64,000 nucleotides of DNA from Marinobacterium marinum (GTDB lineage: Bacteria > Pseudomonadota > Gammaproteobacteria > Pseudomonadales > Balneatricaceae). Position 1 is the first letter of the stretch, and the number at the start of each line of letters is the position of its first letter. The notes under the pieces were generated by a model that worked only from the letters and a program-made list of their open reading frames with translations, was not told the origin of the DNA and searched no databases. Position numbers and translations under genes: made by a program. Of this stretch, positions 605-48,423 are shown piece by piece. The stretch is from assembly GCF_013868415.1 (NCBI RefSeq), contig NZ_JACEMT010000041.1:248001-312000 (forward strand), in the 5' to 3' direction.

Positions 605-2182
605 ATGCGACTTGTGCCCGCCGCAGTGATGGCTGTGACATTGGGAATGTTACTGGCCGGCTGTCAAACCCGTTCCGTCAAACCAGAATCTGCCGCGCCC
701 GCCAAGCCTCTGCCTCAGACCGAAAGCATCACTCGGGCCGACAGCGAAAAGCCCGCAACCGATGCTGACCTCTGGACCCTGACCCGCCAGCACATGCAAC
801 TGCCCCTGGACCTTGAGCACCCTCGCATCCAGACACAAATAAACTGGTACCACCGTCACCCTTCCTCCTTGCAGCGGGTAACCGAGCGTGCCCAGCCCTA
901 TTATCACTACATTCTCAATGAAGTGCTGAAACGGGACATGCCGGCCGAAATCGCATTATTGCCAGTCGTCGAAAGCTCCTACGACCCCTTCGCCTATTCA
1001 CATGGCCGCGCCGCCGGCCCCTGGCAGTTTATCCCAGGCACCGCTCGCCATTTTGGACTCAAATCCAGCTGGTGGTATGACGGGCGACGCGACATTCTGG
1101 CATCAACCGAGGCCGCGCTGACATATTTGCAGCAGCTGAACAAGCGCTTCGACGGCGACTGGCTATTGGCGCTGGCAGCCTATAATTCCGGCGGCGGCAC
1201 TGTCAGCCGCGCCATGCGCCGCAACCGCGAAAAGGGCGAGCCTACCGATTACTGGTCCCTCGACCTGCCCCGCGAGACTCAGGCCTATGTGCCCAAATTG
1301 CTGGCAGTCGCCAAGCTGGTCCGTGATGCCGACACCCTCGGCATGACCCTCACCCCCATCGACAATACGCCACATTTCGAGGTTGTAGAAACCGGCGGTC
1401 AGATCGATCTGGCACAGGTTGCCAGCATGGCCGAGATGGAGCTCAAGGCCCTGTATCAGCTCAACCCTGGCTTCAACCGCTGGGCAACCGACCCGGAAGG
1501 GCCGCACCAACTGCTGATCCCCGTCGGAAAGGCCGAGCAACTGCGTAACCAGCTGGCTCAACTACCGCCGCAGCAACGCGTCAGCTGGCACCAGTATCAG
1601 GTCCAGTCCGGTGATACACTGAGCACTATTGCCCAACGCTTCAATAGCTCCGTTGCCGTTCTTCGTCAGGGCAACAACCTGAAAGGCAACCGGATTCGTG
1701 CCGGTCAAAACCTGGTCGTCCCGAAACCGGCTCTGGATGCAACCGACTACGCACTCAGCAAAACCCAGCGCAAACATGCCCGCATGCAGCACCTCGAACA
1801 AAGCAATAGCCGCAAGCAGTATCATCAGGTCAACCCGGGCGACAGCTTCTGGGGCATCGCGCGCCACTACGGTATTGGCGTACGCGAATTGGCCCGCTGG
1901 AACCAAATGGCTCCCGGCGACACTTTGAAGCCCGGTCAGCGCCTGCTGGTGCTGAACGCCAGCAACAACCAAGCAACCCCCACCCTGCCGGTCATGCCAA
2001 CACGAGACATGACCCGTAAAGTCGGCTACCGTATCCGCAAGGGAGATTCACTGTATCGCATTGCCAGCCGGTTTGGCGTTAGCGTCTCAGACATTCTCAG
2101 CTGGAACAAGATCAGTGCCGATACTTTGCTCCAGCCTGGCCAACCCCTGACGCTATACGTCAATATTGCAGACGCGAGCTAG
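605..2182 (+). CDS. mltD: Membrane-bound lytic murein transglycosylase D with three LysM repeats
   Basis: 525 residues. The N-terminus is a lipoprotein signal with lipobox LAGC (Cys20). An SLT transglycosylase domain follows at about residues 95-250, with the catalytic Glu at about 123 in PVVESSYDP and the family signature GRAAGPWQFIPGTA. Three LysM peptidoglycan-binding repeats follow, beginning YQVQSGDTLS, HQVNPGDSFW and YRIRKGDSLY. The protein is expected in the periplasm, anchored to the outer membrane, where it cleaves glycan strands to 1,6-anhydro-muropeptides. The ATG at 605 is preceded by a CAGGA ribosome site and gives an intact signal peptide. Three LysM repeats is one or two more than the shortest family members carry. 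Confidence 0.95.
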   Translation: MRLVPAAVMAVTLGMLLAGCQTRSVKPESAAPAKPLPQTESITRADSEKPATDADLWTLTRQHMQLPLDLEHPRIQTQINWYHRHPSSLQRVTERAQPYYHYILNEVLKRDMPAEIALLPVVESSYDPFAYSHGRAAGPWQFIPGTARHFGLKSSWWYDGRRDILASTEAALTYLQQLNKRFDGDWLLALAAYNSGGGTVSRAMRRNREKGEPTDYWSLDLPRETQAYVPKLLAVAKLVRDADTLGMTLTPIDNTPHFEVVETGGQIDLAQVASMAEMELKALYQLNPGFNRWATDPEGPHQLLIPVGKAEQLRNQLAQLPPQQRVSWHQYQVQSGDTLSTIAQRFNSSVAVLRQGNNLKGNRIRAGQNLVVPKPALDATDYALSKTQRKHARMQHLEQSNSRKQYHQVNPGDSFWGIARHYGIGVRELARWNQMAPGDTLKPGQRLLVLNASNNQATPTLPVMPTRDMTRKVGYRIRKGDSLYRIASRFGVSVSDILSWNKISADTLLQPGQPLTLYVNIADAS

Positions 2183-2185
2183 GCC

Positions 2186-2437
2186 ATGGACGCCCTGAGT
2201 ATTTTCATTATTATTGTGTCTGTTGTACTGGCAATCGTGTTCAAATGGGTGCTGTTTCGCAAGATTCAGCGCTGGATGGACCAGGATCTGATCAAGCAAC
2301 TGGCCGATGGTGATCCGGTACGCATGTCGGCGCTACACCAGCAGGATCAGCAACTGAAACAACAGGGCATCAAACGACCAAAGCGGCATGAACGCCTGCA
2401 AGAATATGCCCGCAACAGCGAACCCAAAGCGGATTAA
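2186..2437 (+). CDS. Small single-pass membrane protein of unknown function
   Basis: 83 residues that I do not recognise as a named family. Residues 3-25 form a hydrophobic segment (LSIFIIIVSVVLAIVFKWVLF). The rest is a charged, probably cytoplasmic tail rich in Gln, Lys and Arg, ending in RNSEPKAD. The start is 3 bases after the mltD stop, so the gene is probably translated from the mltD message. Base composition is like that of its neighbours, which argues for a real resident gene. It could be an accessory protein for envelope work, but only the position suggests this. Confidence 0.7.
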   Translation: MDALSIFIIIVSVVLAIVFKWVLFRKIQRWMDQDLIKQLADGDPVRMSALHQQDQQLKQQGIKRPKRHERLQEYARNSEPKAD

Positions 2438-2494
2438 ACTGTCACAGGCTATTGAATTCATTATAAGAATCACGCATGACCTTGGGAGAATACT

Positions 2495-4297
2495 GTGTCC
2501 GACTCAGTCAATATCCACCGCTGCCTCCTTGCGGTTAGTGCTTTCCTTATCCTTACTCTATTCCCCCTGCCCGGCCTGACTGCCGAGTCCGTGCACGGCA
2601 TTGCCATGCACGGCGAACTCAAGTACCCGGCAGACTTCCAGCATTTCGACTATGTAAACCCACAAGCCCCCAAGGGTGGGCGCCTGCGCGAATCCGCCAT
2701 CGGTACTTTCGACAGCCTGAACCCCTTCATCATCAAGGGTACCGTCGCCGAGGGCAGTGGGCTGATCTACGACACCCTGCTCAGCCGGGCACTCGACGAA
2801 CCCTTCTCGCTGTACGGATTACTGGCCGAGCAGTTGCGCGTTGCCGAGGACCGCAGCTGGATCGAGTTCGATCTGCGCCCTGAGGCCCGCTTCAGCGATG
2901 GCCAGCCGGTAACCGCCCAAGACGTCGTGTTCACGTTCAACCTTCTGATGGAAAAGGGTAGTCCCTTCTTCAAAAGCTACTATGCCGACATACGTGATAT
3001 TAGCGCTCCGTCCCGGCATACCGTTCGCTTTTCCTTCAGCGGCGGCCTGAACCAGGAGTTGCCACTGATTGTTGGTGAGGTGCCGATCTTACCCGCCCAT
3101 TACTGGCAAGAGCGCGACTTCTCGATCCCGTCACTGGAAGTTCCCGTTGGTTCGGGCCCCTACCGTATTGGCCGAATTGATCCGGGACGCACCATTGTTT
3201 ACGAGCGACGCGAGGACTACTGGGGAACGAACCTGCCCGTAAACCGTGGCCGCTTCAACTTCGACCAGCGCCAGTATGACTACTACCGGGACAGTACGGT
3301 TGCGCTGGAGGCCTTCAAGGCCGGCGAATATGATTTCCGCCAGGAAAACGCGTCCAAGATATGGGCGACCGGCTATACCGGAGCCCCGTTCAACGACGGC
3401 CGTATCCGGAAGGAAGAGATCGAACACCGCAACCCCCAGGGGGTGCAAGGATTCGTCATGAACAGCCGTCGCCCCGAATTCAGCGACCCTCGTGTACGTG
3501 AGGCCCTGACCTACGCCTTCGACTTTGAATGGACCAACCACAACCTGTTCTACGACGCTTATACCCGCAGCAACAGCTATTTTTCCAACTCGGATATGGC
3601 GGCGAGCGCTCTGCCGACCTCCGCAGAACTCGAGTTGCTGGAACCGGTACGCGACCAGGTCCCGCCCGAAGTTTTCACCAATGTCTACAAAGCCCCCAGT
3701 ACGGATGGCAGCGGACGCAATCGCACCCAGATGCGTACCGCCCTCAAGCTGCTGCAGGAGGCCGGCTGGGAGCTGAAAGGCGGCAAGCTGGTCAACGCTG
3801 ACGGCAAGCCTTTTCACTTCGAAATCATGCTGATCCAAAAAGAGTTCGAGCGCGTCGTCTCGCCCTTTGTGCGCAACCTGGAACGTCTGGGCATTAGCGC
3901 CGACATACGCATGGTCGATGTATCTCAGTACATCAACCGCCTGCGTCAGTTTGATTTTGACATGGTCGTGTATCGCTTTGCCCAGTCCAGCTCCCCCGGC
4001 AACGAGCAACGCGATTACTGGCATTCGGATTCCGCCATGAAACCGGGCAGCCGCAACCTGATCGGCGTACGGGATCCGGCCATCGACTTCCTGGTCGATC
4101 AGCTGATTGCCGCACCTGATCGGGAACAGCTGATCCTGCGAACCCGTGCTCTGGACCGGGTTTTGCAGTGGAATCACTTTGTCATTCCACACTACCACAT
4201 CAGTACCTGGCGCATTGCCTACTGGAACAAATTTGCCCACCCGGCGAACAGCCCGACCTATAGCCTGGGCCTGGATACCTGGTGGACCAAGCCCTGA
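2495..4297 (+). CDS. yejA: Periplasmic oligopeptide-binding protein of the YejABEF ABC importer
   Basis: 600 residues. There is a signal peptide (hydrophobic run [17 protein letters not shown], probable cleavage after LTA), then a family 5 extracellular solute-binding domain. Recognisable segments are [27 protein letters not shown] at the start of the mature chain and the Ser/Gly-rich FDSLNPF motif. It binds peptides in the periplasm and delivers them to YejB/YejE. The start is GTG at 2495, five bases after a GGGAGA ribosome site, and it gives a proper signal peptide. It overlaps yejB by one base (TGATGA), showing translational coupling. In enteric bacteria this system takes up microcin C and antimicrobial peptides; that role here is inferred from the family only. 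Confidence 0.93.
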
Positions 4298-25818: not shown

Positions 25819-25894
25819 TGGTGGGTCGTATAGGACTCGAACCTATGACCAATTGGTTAAAAGCCAACTGCTCTACCAACTGAGCTAACGACCC
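25819..25894 (-). tRNA. tRNA-Lys (anticodon TTT), second copy
   Basis: 76 bases with encoded CCA. On the minus strand it starts GGGTCGTTAGCTCAG, with anticodon loop CTTTTAA and T-arm GGTTCGAGTCC. It is identical over its whole length to the copy at 25935-26010. Confidence 0.97.
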
Positions 25895-25934: not shown

Positions 25935-26010
25935 TGGTGGGTCGTATAGGACTCGAACCTATGACCAATTGGTTAAAAGCCAACTGCTCTACCAACTGAG
26001 CTAACGACCC
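25935..26010 (-). tRNA. tRNA-Lys (anticodon TTT), first copy
   Basis: 76 bases with encoded CCA, identical to the copy 40 bases downstream. It is the promoter-proximal member of a two-tRNA unit, with a good promoter at 26023-26050. Confidence 0.97.
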
Positions 26011-43771: not shown

Positions 43772-45421
43772 GTGAATCGCGAATCGATGGAATTTGATGT
43801 TGTAATCGTCGGCGCTGGCCCTGCCGGACTTTCCGCCGCCTGCCGTCTGATGCAACAGGCCCAGGCCGCCGAACAGGAACTGACGGTCTGCGTGGTGGAA
43901 AAAGGTTCTGAAGTCGGTGCCCACATTCTGTCGGGCGCCGTAATGGAAACACGCGCCCTGGACGAGCTTTTCCCCGACTGGAAGGAACGCAACGCCCCTC
44001 TCAACACCAAAGTCACCGAAGACCAGGTGTTCATGCTGAAAAACGAGACCAGCGCGGTTAAGCTCCCCAATGCCTTTGTTCCCAAAAGCATGCATAACGA
44101 CGGCAATTACATCGTCAGCCTGGGCAATCTCACCCGCTGGCTGGGCGAACAGGCCGAGCAACTGGGCGTTGAAGTTTTCCCTGGCTTTGCCGCTGCCGAA
44201 GTCCTGTATCACGAAGATAACAGCGTCAAAGGAATCGCGACCGGTGATATGGGCGTGACCGCTGCCGGAGAGCAGGGTCCCAACTACATGCCCGGCATGG
44301 AACTGCATGCCAAGTACACTATTTTTTCCGAAGGATGCCGCGGCCACCTTGGCAAGCAGTTGATTGAAAAATTCGCCTTGGACAAGAATGCTGACCCCCA
44401 GCATTACGGGATCGGTATCAAAGAACTCTGGGACATAGACCCGGCCAAGCACCAACCCGGCCTGGTCGTACACGGTTCCGGCTGGCCACTGACCAGCGGC
44501 GCCAGTGGCGGTTTCTTCCTTTACCACACCGAAGACAACCAGGTAGTAGTGGGCCTGATTATCGACCTGAACTACTCCAACCCCTGGCTGAGTCCCTTCG
44601 ATGAATTCCAGCGCATGAAACACCACCCCGAGATCAAACAGTATCTGGAAGGTGGCAAGCGCGTATCCTATGGCGCCCGCGCCATCACCAAAGGCGGCTT
44701 CAACACCCTGCCGAAAATGACCATGCCCGGCGCTCTGCTACTGGGCTGTGATGCAGGCACCTTGAATTTTTCCAAGATCAAGGGCATTCACACCGCCATG
44801 AAATCCGGCCTGCTGGCCGCTGAAGCCATTTCCGAGACACTGCTGAACGGGGACGAGGGCGGCCGGGATCTGGCCGGCTACACTGAGGCATACAAGACCT
44901 CCTGGCTGTATGACGAGCTTTACCGTGCCCGTAACTTCGGCCCGGCCATGCACAAGTTCGGTCCTTATCTGGGCGGCGCATTCAACTATGTCGACCAAAA
45001 CTGGTTCGGCGGCAAGATTCCAGTCACATTGCACGACCTGCACAAGGATCACGAACAACTCAAACCGGCTGATGCATGTCCGGAGATCCAGTACCCGAAA
45101 CCGGACGGTGTTTTATCCTTCGACAAACTGTCCTCAGTATTCCTCTCCAATACCAACCATGAAGAGGATCAGCCCTGCCATCTGCAACTGAAGGATGCCG
45201 GCATCCCCATCAACCAAAACCTGCCCCGCTATGCCGAACCGGCACAACGCTACTGCCCGGCAGGCGTGTATGAAATCGTCGAAGGCGATAACGGTCCTCA
45301 ATTCCAAATCAACTCTCAAAACTGCGTGCACTGCAAAACCTGCGACATCAAGGACCCGGCACAGAACATCACCTGGGTCGTGCCGGAAGGCGCAGGTGGC
45401 CCCAACTATCCCAACATGTAA
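43772..45421 (+). CDS. etfDH: Electron transfer flavoprotein-ubiquinone oxidoreductase
   Basis: 549 residues from a GTG at 43772, seven bases after GGAGG. The N-terminal FAD fingerprint is VVIVGAGPAGLSAACRL. The quinone and membrane-facing region lies in the middle. Near the C-terminus are the 4Fe-4S cysteines (YCPAGVYE..QNCVHCKTCDIKDP) and the family end GPNYPNM. It oxidises reduced EtfAB and passes electrons to ubiquinone at the inner membrane. The protein is intact. Its stop codon TAA is the last exon sequence before a group II intron and forms part of that intron's target site. Confidence 0.96.
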   Translation: MNRESMEFDVVIVGAGPAGLSAACRLMQQAQAAEQELTVCVVEKGSEVGAHILSGAVMETRALDELFPDWKERNAPLNTKVTEDQVFMLKNETSAVKLPNAFVPKSMHNDGNYIVSLGNLTRWLGEQAEQLGVEVFPGFAAAEVLYHEDNSVKGIATGDMGVTAAGEQGPNYMPGMELHAKYTIFSEGCRGHLGKQLIEKFALDKNADPQHYGIGIKELWDIDPAKHQPGLVVHGSGWPLTSGASGGFFLYHTEDNQVVVGLIIDLNYSNPWLSPFDEFQRMKHHPEIKQYLEGGKRVSYGARAITKGGFNTLPKMTMPGALLLGCDAGTLNFSKIKGIHTAMKSGLLAAEAISETLLNGDEGGRDLAGYTEAYKTSWLYDELYRARNFGPAMHKFGPYLGGAFNYVDQNWFGGKIPVTLHDLHKDHEQLKPADACPEIQYPKPDGVLSFDKLSSVFLSNTNHEEDQPCHLQLKDAGIPINQNLPRYAEPAQRYCPAGVYEIVEGDNGPQFQINSQNCVHCKTCDIKDPAQNITWVVPEGAGGPNYPNM

Positions 45422-46594
45422 GTGCGACGAGAAGTCGCGTTTGCTGGCGTAAGTGCCTGTTTATAATAGGTATTTACGTAACGTGGTGTCAAGCGTCAGT
45501 CAGCTGGATGCCACTCGGTCGAGCCTTGAATCGACCACTTATCTCAACACTGCCCACCTCGGGCACTCATATTGGAGGGCTGCAAATACGCCCTCCACAG
45601 GTCACAACTCTGCGCGATTGGCGGCCTTGGCCGTTGCGTAGGGCACCTGTGCCGCGCCCCTGATCAGGGCACGGTTGGGTGTCGGCGGCTTTCTCAACCG
45701 CTGATTTGACCTGCACCTCGTCCAATGAAGACCTTTCCTGACCCTCTCCACCCTGTGGAACTGACACAACGTCGTCGTGGCTGACACTGATCAGTCACTA
45801 CACTTTAGTCATGTCTGGCCAACCTGTTCAGGGTTGGCTGGGTGGGTAATGGAACAGCGGTCCGAACAGACCACAGGTGATTGAGGTGTTGGGATCAAAC
45901 GCCAAAGCGTTCAGAGGAATTGTCTCACCGACTGACCGGTAGCGAGACCCGCAGTGTGCCCTGCGGTAGCCTAGGGATAGTGCAGGACGGGTAACTGTTT
46001 TGTGCGAAGCTTCCTGACAATGTACCCCCTCCTCGGAGGTGGCGTGGCCCGCGAGGGTGCGTCAGAGGCTGCGAGTGACGATGCGGCTTAGGGGCTAGGC
46101 TGGGCAATAGGATGAACGTATGTGAACCGTTGATAAACGTCGTTATGGGGACGGAGCCAAAGTCACTGACAGGCTTCAACCAAAAGGTATCTGGTTGGTT
46201 CTGGTGTTTTACATTCACCAGACGGCACCCTTCAACCAGCGGCGAAAAGACGGCATCTACGTTGCTCGTGTTTCTTTGAATGAACTCGGTAAGCCCGTAT
46301 CCCTGCCCCCTGGGCAGGTCCATCGTAAGGTGGGCTGTTGGGGGTGCGGGTAGAGGAGGATGGAGAAAGCGAAGGCCGTGGTTAATCCCACGGATAGCAG
46401 CACGAAACATGGCTGCCAGCGAAAGCTGTGCCCACTTCCATCTGGTCTCGCGTGGCGAGACAACTGGGCAACCCTCGAAACGGGTCGCACGTTGAGGCTA
46501 GGCTGATCGTGTACCCAACAACTCAATTCCTGACGGGAACAGACCTCCCGTCAGGGCTGGTCCGTCTCCTGTTCAGGCTGTAAAGGAGATTAGC
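45422..46594 (+). ncRNA. Group II intron RNA, domains I-III, unusually long
   Basis: 1173 bases of ribozyme RNA before the maturase gene; most bacterial introns have about 500-650 here. The second part (from about 45995) has features common in such introns: GATGAACGTATGTGAACCG, the EBS1 hairpin at 46201-46221 and GAACTCGGTAAGCCCG at 46283-46298. The first part is also dense in stems: GCGAC/GTCGC (45424-45438), an 11-bp stem with G-T pairs (45448-45478), GGAGGGC/GCCCTCC (45574-45596) and GCCAACC/GGTTGGC (45818-45838). EBS2 lies at its end. No reading frame of note is present. Confidence 0.75.
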
Positions 46595-48298
46595 ATGACC
46601 AGCAATCCGACTTCGGCGGATTCTGCACTCTCCGGCAGACCTGAAGGCTGGCACCAGATCGACTGGCGTCATGTCGAATGGACTGTCCGAGGGATACAGA
46701 TTCGGATCGCCAAAGCAGCTCGTGAACGGAAGTGGCGCCAGGTCAAGGCCCTGCAACGCTTCCTGACGCGTTCGTTTTGTGGCCGAGCCTTGGCCGTGAA
46801 GCGAGTGACTGAAAACAAGGGCCGCAGAACTCCCGGCGTTGATCGGGAGCTATGGGGCACGCCCAAGGCCAAATGGCGGGCGATAGGTCGACTAAAACGA
46901 CGGGGGTACAAGGCTTTGCCACTGCGCCGAGTCCGTATTCCCAAGGCAAATGGCAAGGAGCGCCTGCTGGGTATTCCAACCATGCGGGACAGAGCCATGC
47001 AGGCATTGTACCTGCTCGCCTTACAACCTGTGGCGGAAACCACGGCGGATCCGAACTCCTATGGATTCAGGCCGCAGCGGTCAACCGCCGATGCCATCAC
47101 GCAGTGTCATCAGATGCTGTGTAAACGCGGCTGTCCCGAATGGATTCTTGAAGCGGACATACAGGGGTGTTTTGACCATATCGACCACCAATGGCTGGTT
47201 GACCACGTCCCAATGGACAAAAAGGTACTGCGCAGCTGGCTAAAAGCCGGCGTTGTCGACATGGGCCGAGTGTGGAAAACGGATGAAGGCACACCGCAAG
47301 GTGGCATTATTTCCCCCACACTTGCCAACATGGCTCTGGATGGTCTGGAGGCATTACTGGCTGAGCACTTCGGTGCAAAAGGCAGCAAACGGCGGCGCAA
47401 GACCAAAGTGGGACTTGTACGCTACGCGGATGACTTCATTGTCACCGGCATCTCGAAAGAGCTGTTGGAACAGGAAGTTAAACCGCTGATCGAGGTGTTT
47501 CTGGCCACTCGTGGTCTGAAGCTGTCACCCGAGAAAACGTGCGTGACTCACGTCAACCACGGCTTTGATTTTCTGGGATGGACCGTGCGCAAGTTCGGCA
47601 CCAAGGTTTTGATCAAACCTTCCAGAAAGAATACCAAGGCGTTTTTGGACAAGTGCCGCGGTATCATCAAGGCCAGCAACGGAGTGGCCCAGGAATACCT
47701 GATCTGGCAGCTGAATCCGGTCATTCGTGGCTGGGTGAACTACCACAAGCATCAGGTGGCCAGTGATGCATTTGCTTCGGTGGATGCAGCACTCTGGAAA
47801 TCACTCTGGAAATGGGCACGACGGCGCCACAACAACCGTCGACGCCGCTGGATTGCCAGACGCTACTGGCATACCGTCGGTAATCGGCAGTGGACGTTTG
47901 CCGTCCCTACGGCAGGTGTGGAGGCGGGTGAGAAAGCCGTATCACTCACCTATGCCAGCGACACACGGATAAAGCGCCATATCAAGGTCAAAGCGGAAGC
48001 CAATCCCTTTGATCCGGCATGGGAGGTGTACTTTGAGGAATTGAGCCGAAAACGCATGGAGGACTCGCTTCGCCATCGACGACGGATCAACACACTCTAT
48101 GCGCGCCAGAAAGGGAAATGCCTGCAATGCATGAACCTGATCACCCATGAGACCGGCTGGCATGTGCATCACCTGATCCCTCGGGTACAAGGTGGGCCTG
48201 ACACGCTGGAAAATCTGGTGTTATTACATCCGAACTGCCACCGCCAAGTGCATCACTTGGCAACATCAGTCACGTTGCTGGTTCCATTGGGAGCTTAG
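46595..48298 (+). CDS. ltrA: Group II intron reverse transcriptase/maturase with HNH endonuclease
   Basis: 567 residues, with start ATG after AAAGGAG. The reverse transcriptase domain (about residues 60-330) has GIPTMRDRAMQALY, SYGFRPQRST, GCFDHIDH, GTPQGGIISPTLAN and the catalytic YADD at 277-280. The maturase (X) domain follows with WQLNPVIRGWVNYHKH. The C-terminal HNH endonuclease has CLQC (509-512), WHVHHLIPRVQGG and LVLLHPNCHRQVH. All active-site motifs are intact. The protein aids splicing of its own intron and drives retrohoming to sites like the etfDH 3' end. Confidence 0.95.
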   Translation: MTSNPTSADSALSGRPEGWHQIDWRHVEWTVRGIQIRIAKAARERKWRQVKALQRFLTRSFCGRALAVKRVTENKGRRTPGVDRELWGTPKAKWRAIGRLKRRGYKALPLRRVRIPKANGKERLLGIPTMRDRAMQALYLLALQPVAETTADPNSYGFRPQRSTADAITQCHQMLCKRGCPEWILEADIQGCFDHIDHQWLVDHVPMDKKVLRSWLKAGVVDMGRVWKTDEGTPQGGIISPTLANMALDGLEALLAEHFGAKGSKRRRKTKVGLVRYADDFIVTGISKELLEQEVKPLIEVFLATRGLKLSPEKTCVTHVNHGFDFLGWTVRKFGTKVLIKPSRKNTKAFLDKCRGIIKASNGVAQEYLIWQLNPVIRGWVNYHKHQVASDAFASVDAALWKSLWKWARRRHNNRRRRWIARRYWHTVGNRQWTFAVPTAGVEAGEKAVSLTYASDTRIKRHIKVKAEANPFDPAWEVYFEELSRKRMEDSLRHRRRINTLYARQKGKCLQCMNLITHETGWHVHHLIPRVQGGPDTLENLVLLHPNCHRQVHHLATSVTLLVPLGA

Positions 48299-48307
48299 AC
48301 GAGGCTT

Positions 48308-48341
48308 GAGCCGTATGCGGGGAAACTCGCACGTACGGTTC
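48308..48341 (+). ncRNA. Group II intron domain V (catalytic core)
   Basis: 34 bases in the canonical domain V form: GAGCCGTATG on the 5' side, a GGGGAAACTC-type tip, and CACGTACGGTTC on the 3' side. Domain VI follows at once (48342-48382) with a GCAA tetraloop and the bulged A at 48376, seven bases from the intron end. Confidence 0.9.
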
Positions 48342-48398
48342 TTAGGGGGCTGGGGCGCAGCAATGCGCCTTGGCTACCCGACTGCTAGGACAAGACCA

Positions 48399-48423
48399 CG
48401 GAAGACCGCCCTGCGGTCTTCCG
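48399..48423 (+). terminator. Hairpin after the intron, probable original etfDH terminator
   Basis: CGGAAGACCGC pairs perfectly with GCGGTCTTCCG (11 bp, three-base loop). In the spliced message it would lie 17 bases after the etfDH stop. There is no T run, so termination strength is uncertain. Confidence 0.5.

Follow-up and report, generated by a model that had tools for sequence, protein, structure and literature searches.

A complete group II intron immediately after the etfDH stop codon of Marinobacterium marinum, with a covariation-backed code for its target

We identified a complete group II intron of 2961 nt immediately 3' of the etfDH stop codon in a 64,000-nt window of the Marinobacterium marinum genome (the whole stretch of DNA analysed, to which coordinates without another label refer). 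We put the probability at roughly 85% that this intron is intact and probably mobile, recognises its exons in the IIB manner and homes to the conserved etfDH end, a reading drawn from sequence comparison. Its domains and protein, its covarying EBS1, EBS2 and EBS3, the occupation of the same site in six genomes, 27 empty etfDH ends and two relics support this reading, while its single copy in the genome and the lack of a direct sign of recent movement count against mobility. The analysis gives a complete bacterial group II intron a target code backed by covariation, and it corrects the code first read from the letters.

Anatomy of the intron and its host gene

The host gene, which encodes ETF-ubiquinone oxidoreductase (EtfDH), is an open reading frame at 43772-45421 on the plus strand, as are all intron features below, with the Pfam domains Fer4_ETF_QO and ETFQO_UQ-bd and a C-terminus of ...GGPNYPNM followed by TAA; it is the single copy found in its genome (one match at E 1e-100). 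The intron occupies 45422-48382 and matches the Rfam families RF02012 and RF00029. Its ends, GTGCGAC at 45422 and CCCGAC, whose final GAC closes the intron at 48382, are common to its relatives and provide both the 5' GUGYG start and the 3' AY end. The domain I core matches group-II-D1D4-7 (RF02012) at 45948-46094 with 97.9 bits and domain V lies at 48308-48341 within an RF00029 match at 48306-48382 with 68 bits, each above the gathering score, and domain VI runs from 48342 to the 3' end at 48382 (CTACCCGAC), with A as its penultimate base. An intron-encoded protein of 567 amino acids at 46595-48298 contains the Pfam domains RVT_N, RVT_1, GIIM maturase and HNH, with YADD at residue 277, and passes the TIGR04416 cut-off for group II reverse transcriptase (RT)/maturases; it is the sole such match in its own genome, indicating one intron copy. 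YADD, HNH and domain V had been named in the first-pass annotation, together with the start of GTGCGAC at 45422, and Pfam, Rfam and the sequence confirmed them. The maturase gene showed dN of 0.17-0.19 and dS of 1.8-2.2 in three pairs, and dN of 0.29 with saturated dS in a fourth pair, with G003, indicating that the intron protein is under purifying selection. We consider the etfDH-stop intron complete and probably active.

A large variable 5' insertion (45497-45965, boundaries approximate), the hallmark of the lineage of Michel et al. 2007, displaces the core motif GTAGCC, whose offset from the intron start is 544 here compared to 73-78 in the related introns L020, L033, L035 and L077. This offset is 316-710 in ten other etfDH or groEL introns with one clear position and 174-228 in three tRNA-Gly introns and L036; in the remaining introns the motif was not found or was ambiguous.

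In the 3' flank, a perfect 11-bp inverted repeat without a T-run was read from the sequence at 48399-48423 and is a possible 3' end of the etfDH transcript. The terminator scan did not list this repeat; promoter and terminator scanning gave 1 and 5 sites, respectively, compared to shuffle means of 1.4 and 3.5. Elsewhere in the window, two tRNA genes whose sequences are identical in the Rfam alignments lie on the minus strand at 25822-25894 and 25938-26010.

Pairing between the intron and its exons

We assessed exon recognition by aligning the core of 31 related introns and scanning 30 of them (L040, unaligned, was omitted) for intron columns complementary to the 5' exon, with no preset sites and with exons permuted between target groups 60 times. 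The alignment was restricted to the core; a whole-5'-end alignment fails inside the 5' insertion. The top-ranked signal was EBS1, TTACAT at 46209-46214 (Z 8.6, compared to a 95th percentile of permutation maxima of 3.1), which lies in a hairpin at 46201-46221 with the nine-base loop TTTTACATT closed by CTGGTG/CACCAG. EBS1 pairs with IBS1, ATGTAA at 45416-45421, which ends in the etfDH stop codon, and all six positions were paired in one aligned register in 26 of 30 introns, with L020, L033, L039 and L077 as the exceptions. The second signal (Z 7.3, same percentile 3.1) joined EBS2, TGGGG at 46146-46150, to exon positions -13 to -9, here the corrected IBS2 TCCCA at 45409-45413, through four Watson-Crick pairs and one G-U pair. 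At least four of these five pairs form in 28 of 30 introns (exceptions G003 and L041), and the match is imperfect in the etfDH relatives G219, G003 and G226, with 4, 3 and 4 of 5 pairs. A candidate EBS2 picked by eye in the terminal loop just upstream (GTGAAC...ATAAA) was rejected: it seemed to fit most groEL introns but not L003 or L011, and the scan placed EBS2 elsewhere.

The first-pass annotation had proposed a continuous 14-base recognition sequence paired at all 14 positions, matching ATCCCAAC (45408-45415) to GTTGGGAT (45888-45895) and ATGTAA to TTACAT. All four strings and the loop stand where it had placed them, and its six-base pairing holds far beyond chance; its eight-base EBS2 and the continuity were not supported, with the covarying EBS2 lying elsewhere and two unpaired bases separating the corrected IBS2 from IBS1. 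A role for GTTGGGAT as EBS2 in this copy alone, giving a continuous 14-base code, is very improbable. Its eight Watson-Crick pairs adjoin IBS1, a perfect 8-mer directly beside IBS1 arose in just 1.7% of 2000 dinucleotide shuffles, and this intron alone among the 31 examined has a perfect 8-mer in that zone; however, the chance is 3.9% if the IBS2 end is allowed at -7 to -10, and at intron nt 553 the same intron matches an overlapping part of the exon with another perfect 8-mer. The segment also sits inside the variable 5' insertion, and a complement of the own exon is absent there in all three complete etfDH-site relatives (L002, L003 and L085), even in L002, whose 14 exon bases are identical. 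In contrast, it is the segment at 46146-46150 that covaries with the exon across introns at different targets.

On the 3' side, the per-intron pairing table matched IBS3, the first exon base T48383, with EBS3, an A at 46247 within a run of four A that leaves its register uncertain. The best EBS3 column formed Watson-Crick pairs with exon position +1 in 22 of 26 introns, or 24 of 26 including G-U, compared to 18 of 26 for the runner-up column, and T46208, the base before EBS1, cannot pair with T48383. These data suggest exon recognition of IIB type, in which the 3' exon is read by EBS3-IBS3 and not by the base beside EBS1.

Occupied and empty etfDH ends

An intron or relic after the etfDH stop was found in six genomes. 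Complete introns follow TAA in M. marinum (G000), G219 (L002) and G003 (L003) and TAG in G226 (L085), and relics follow intact TGA stops in G278 (L081) and G163 (L114). The G278 relic retains the first 176 bases at 88.6% identity together with two inner pieces, the G163 relic aligns at 74.5% with roughly the first 215 bases of the intron in G226, and domain V was not found in the stretch fetched for either relic. At L085 2177-10011 in G226, the 5' portion of the etfDH intron contains IS66 transposase genes (Pfam), and the intron's 3' end is followed directly by another, incomplete copy of its start, beside the same gene set reversed.

Empty etfDH sites, which the first-pass annotation had suggested looking for in related genomes, do occur. 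Thirty etfDH loci were sampled for their ends, 5 of them without a readable end; no intron start was present at 23 of the 25 readable ends or at four more, a total of 27. The empty site of G037, from the same genus, reads TAA-ATGCTACTG compared to TAA|TGCTAGGAC here, and these flanks (TAA-ATGCTA versus TAA|TGCTA) are compatible with insertion after TAA and one base of drift. Among 390 genomes of the order, 18 matched a stop-codon pattern, at 19 places in all, while its reversed control gave one match in each of 2 genomes; in a set of 321 genomes from the class, including 4 from the order, the pattern matched only the window's own site and the control matched one.

Protein identity among the four complete etfDH-site introns (65-75%) is near that of their EtfDH hosts (64-71%), so that long vertical residence with losses explains the etfDH copies about as well as repeated homing does. 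An intron that can splice and no longer moves, inherited vertically with many losses, would also fit the single copy and the two degenerate relics, but we consider this unlikely, given that full RT and HNH domains persist under purifying selection and that presence is patchy within the genus, where G037, G198 and G238 of the five genomes sampled (the window's own included) have no etfDH intron. We favour the intact and probably mobile intron.

Related introns at groEL stop codons and in tRNA-Gly genes

In a protein tree, the etfDH introns (support 94/94), a set of groEL introns (100/100) and a set of tRNA-Gly introns (100/98) each form one clade among the labelled rows, and together with L036, L076 and L079 they make up a single group (20 rows; 92/83 with the midpoint root) that includes no named Azotobacter sequence. 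For L036, the joined and translated flanks gave no nameable open frame across the insertion site. A related intron protein also covers 1059-2747 of CP075775.1, a 2837-bp sequence listed as a Pseudomonas aeruginosa plasmid.

The groEL introns are inserted one base earlier than the etfDH introns, inside the stop codon, at sites reading ATGATGTA|GTGCGAC or ATGATGTG|ATGCGAC; the host gene was identified as a Cpn60 chaperonin in L086 and by C-terminal sequence or GroEL search in the others. All 16 insertions read as a stop codon when unspliced, with the first intron base completing it: TA is followed by G1 in 11, TG by A1 in four (G278, G379, G816 and G085), TA by A1 in one (G389) and TG by G1 in none, and G1 is thereby found in 11 of 12 TA|A insertions. 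This count includes partial copies (G085, G389 and G266 have no domain V in the stretch fetched, and G195 and G774 were seen in part) as well as G273, and its Fisher p of 0.0027 is descriptive, the rows being related. In G273 (L090 around 3108), what precedes the groEL-type intron is just the final 18 bases of groEL and not an intact gene, and the intron's 3' exon base is G, not A. Where no intron start is present, groEL in relatives ends in TAA or TGA, indicating that the intron is not the cause of TGA. The groEL of M. marinum itself (L135, reverse complement) ends ATGATGTG-ATGCGACG and then diverges, and this 8-base segment is possibly the scar left when an A-type groEL intron was lost.

The first and penultimate intron bases, whose interaction has been described (in the accessible text of PMC4238363 and PMC3669008), shift together where the groEL stop is TGA, at least twice on the tree. 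Among 25 introns with parsed ends (27 tried), 22 had G and A, three had A and G, and none were mixed; the count excludes G370 and L038, whose ends were unparsed, and introns with other 3' ends (such as L039, L040 and L076). The three A/G introns (L086, L088 on the reverse complement, and L111) have EBS1 CACATC compared to TACATC in the G/A groEL introns at TAA stops, and the core-DNA tree requires two changes to the A/G state, forced by well-supported branches (G278 with G331; G379 and G816 with G273). The protein match in G278 covers residues 3-337 only and the G379 protein has an in-frame stop, features that would count against active splicing of the A/G introns. The groEL and etfDH introns are a natural experiment, relatives placed one base apart at stop codons.

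Placement at stop codons might instead be a by-product, with any conserved motif sufficing and EtfDH and GroEL happening to have well-conserved ATG-stop ends. We doubt this explanation, although GGP[NS]YPNM was present in 25 of 25 EtfDH ends read, the intron-bearing groEL genes shown encode a GGMM C-terminus, and related introns occupy other sites. A by-product would not be expected to complete the stop with the first intron base in 16 of 16 groEL cases, nor to use A1 at four of four TG|A sites and G1 at none, while the two etfDH TGA sites, where the stop lies wholly upstream, keep G1 as expected of a control; both of these are relics. We infer from this pattern that the introns may be under selection for preservation of the stop.

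The third clade has four members, in G037 (from the window's genus), G624 (two) and G697, and interrupts tRNA-Gly after CCAAGC. When joined, the flanks give a tRNA-Gly fold in each of the four cases. Immediately 5' of its protein gene, every one of these introns contains an entire tRNA-Gly whose anticodon is identical to that of the interrupted gene (ccc, tcc, ccc and ccc). In L021 (reverse complement), for example, the tRNA lies at 1376-1449 inside the intron at 616-3201, and the same arrangement is seen in L037, L044 and L038. CCAACC replaces the target CCAAGC in three of the four inner copies, with L038 keeping CCAAGC, a change by which the intron should not recognise its own cargo. Because these introns form one clade, the cargo tRNA may have a single origin. 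In G624, the interrupted tcc copy is flanked by a tRNA-Tyr roughly 0.6 kb upstream and, immediately downstream, a tRNA-Thr; a search of that genome at E 1e-5 matched no other intact copy of it. A separate, uninterrupted tcc gene is present in both G037 and G697.

Class C group II introns follow terminator motifs, whereas the etfDH intron follows a stop codon and precedes a downstream hairpin. The accessible text of PMC4424553 notes that class C introns, too, use sites outside coding sequence. LtrA and GsI-IIC are RT/maturase relatives of the etfDH intron protein, and its best matching solved protein is that of PDB 6ME0, a group II RNA-protein structure (E 1.4e-185, residues 16-554). 6ME0 is the Thermosynechococcus intron, of type IIB, which is not known to have a large 5' insertion; its target differs from that of the etfDH-stop intron. 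Ferat et al. reportedly described in 2003 an intron at the groEL termination codon of Azotobacter, and the groEL clade found here occupies the same site. The groEL-stop intron and its 5'-insertion subset are already published: in its accessible text, PMC4465626, citing Michel et al. 2007, places the A. vinelandii groEL intron in a monophyletic subset sharing a large 5' insertion and reports that in A. chroococcum the copy does not coincide precisely with the groEL termination codon. The etfDH intron shares the large 5' insertion with this Azotobacter intron, whose site is at or near the groEL termination codon (PMC4465626), but its host is etfDH, its insertion falls one base later, after a complete stop, and the etfDH introns are a separate clade. 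In the accessible text of the open-access PMC literature we recognised no description of an intron at the etfDH stop, of a first-base change linked to TGA or of a spare tRNA carried by an intron; any of these may already be published, and Ferat 2003 or Michel 2007 may mention etfDH.

By established group II biology, the intron-encoded protein would assist splicing of the RNA, the lariat-protein complex would reverse-splice into an empty etfDH end, HNH would nick the opposite strand and the RT would copy the intron, which would belong to a large-5'-insertion lineage settling in conserved sites of essential genes. As the intron starts only once the stop codon is complete, spliced and unspliced transcripts should both yield correct EtfDH, and a dead intron copy should therefore cost little. 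Judging from sequence, we give even odds to the broader proposal that the whole lineage is adapted to essential sites by built-in fail-safes: etfDH introns would sit after the stop, groEL introns would have a first base chosen to complete the stop, changing with the penultimate base and EBS1 at TGA hosts, and tRNA-Gly introns would bring a complete spare tRNA-Gly, with target bases altered in three of four. An intron with its own spare tRNA would, if this is true, be a striking example of how a selfish element can insure its host, and the fail-safes would account for the persistence of mobile introns in essential genes of bacteria, whose interruption should otherwise be lethal.
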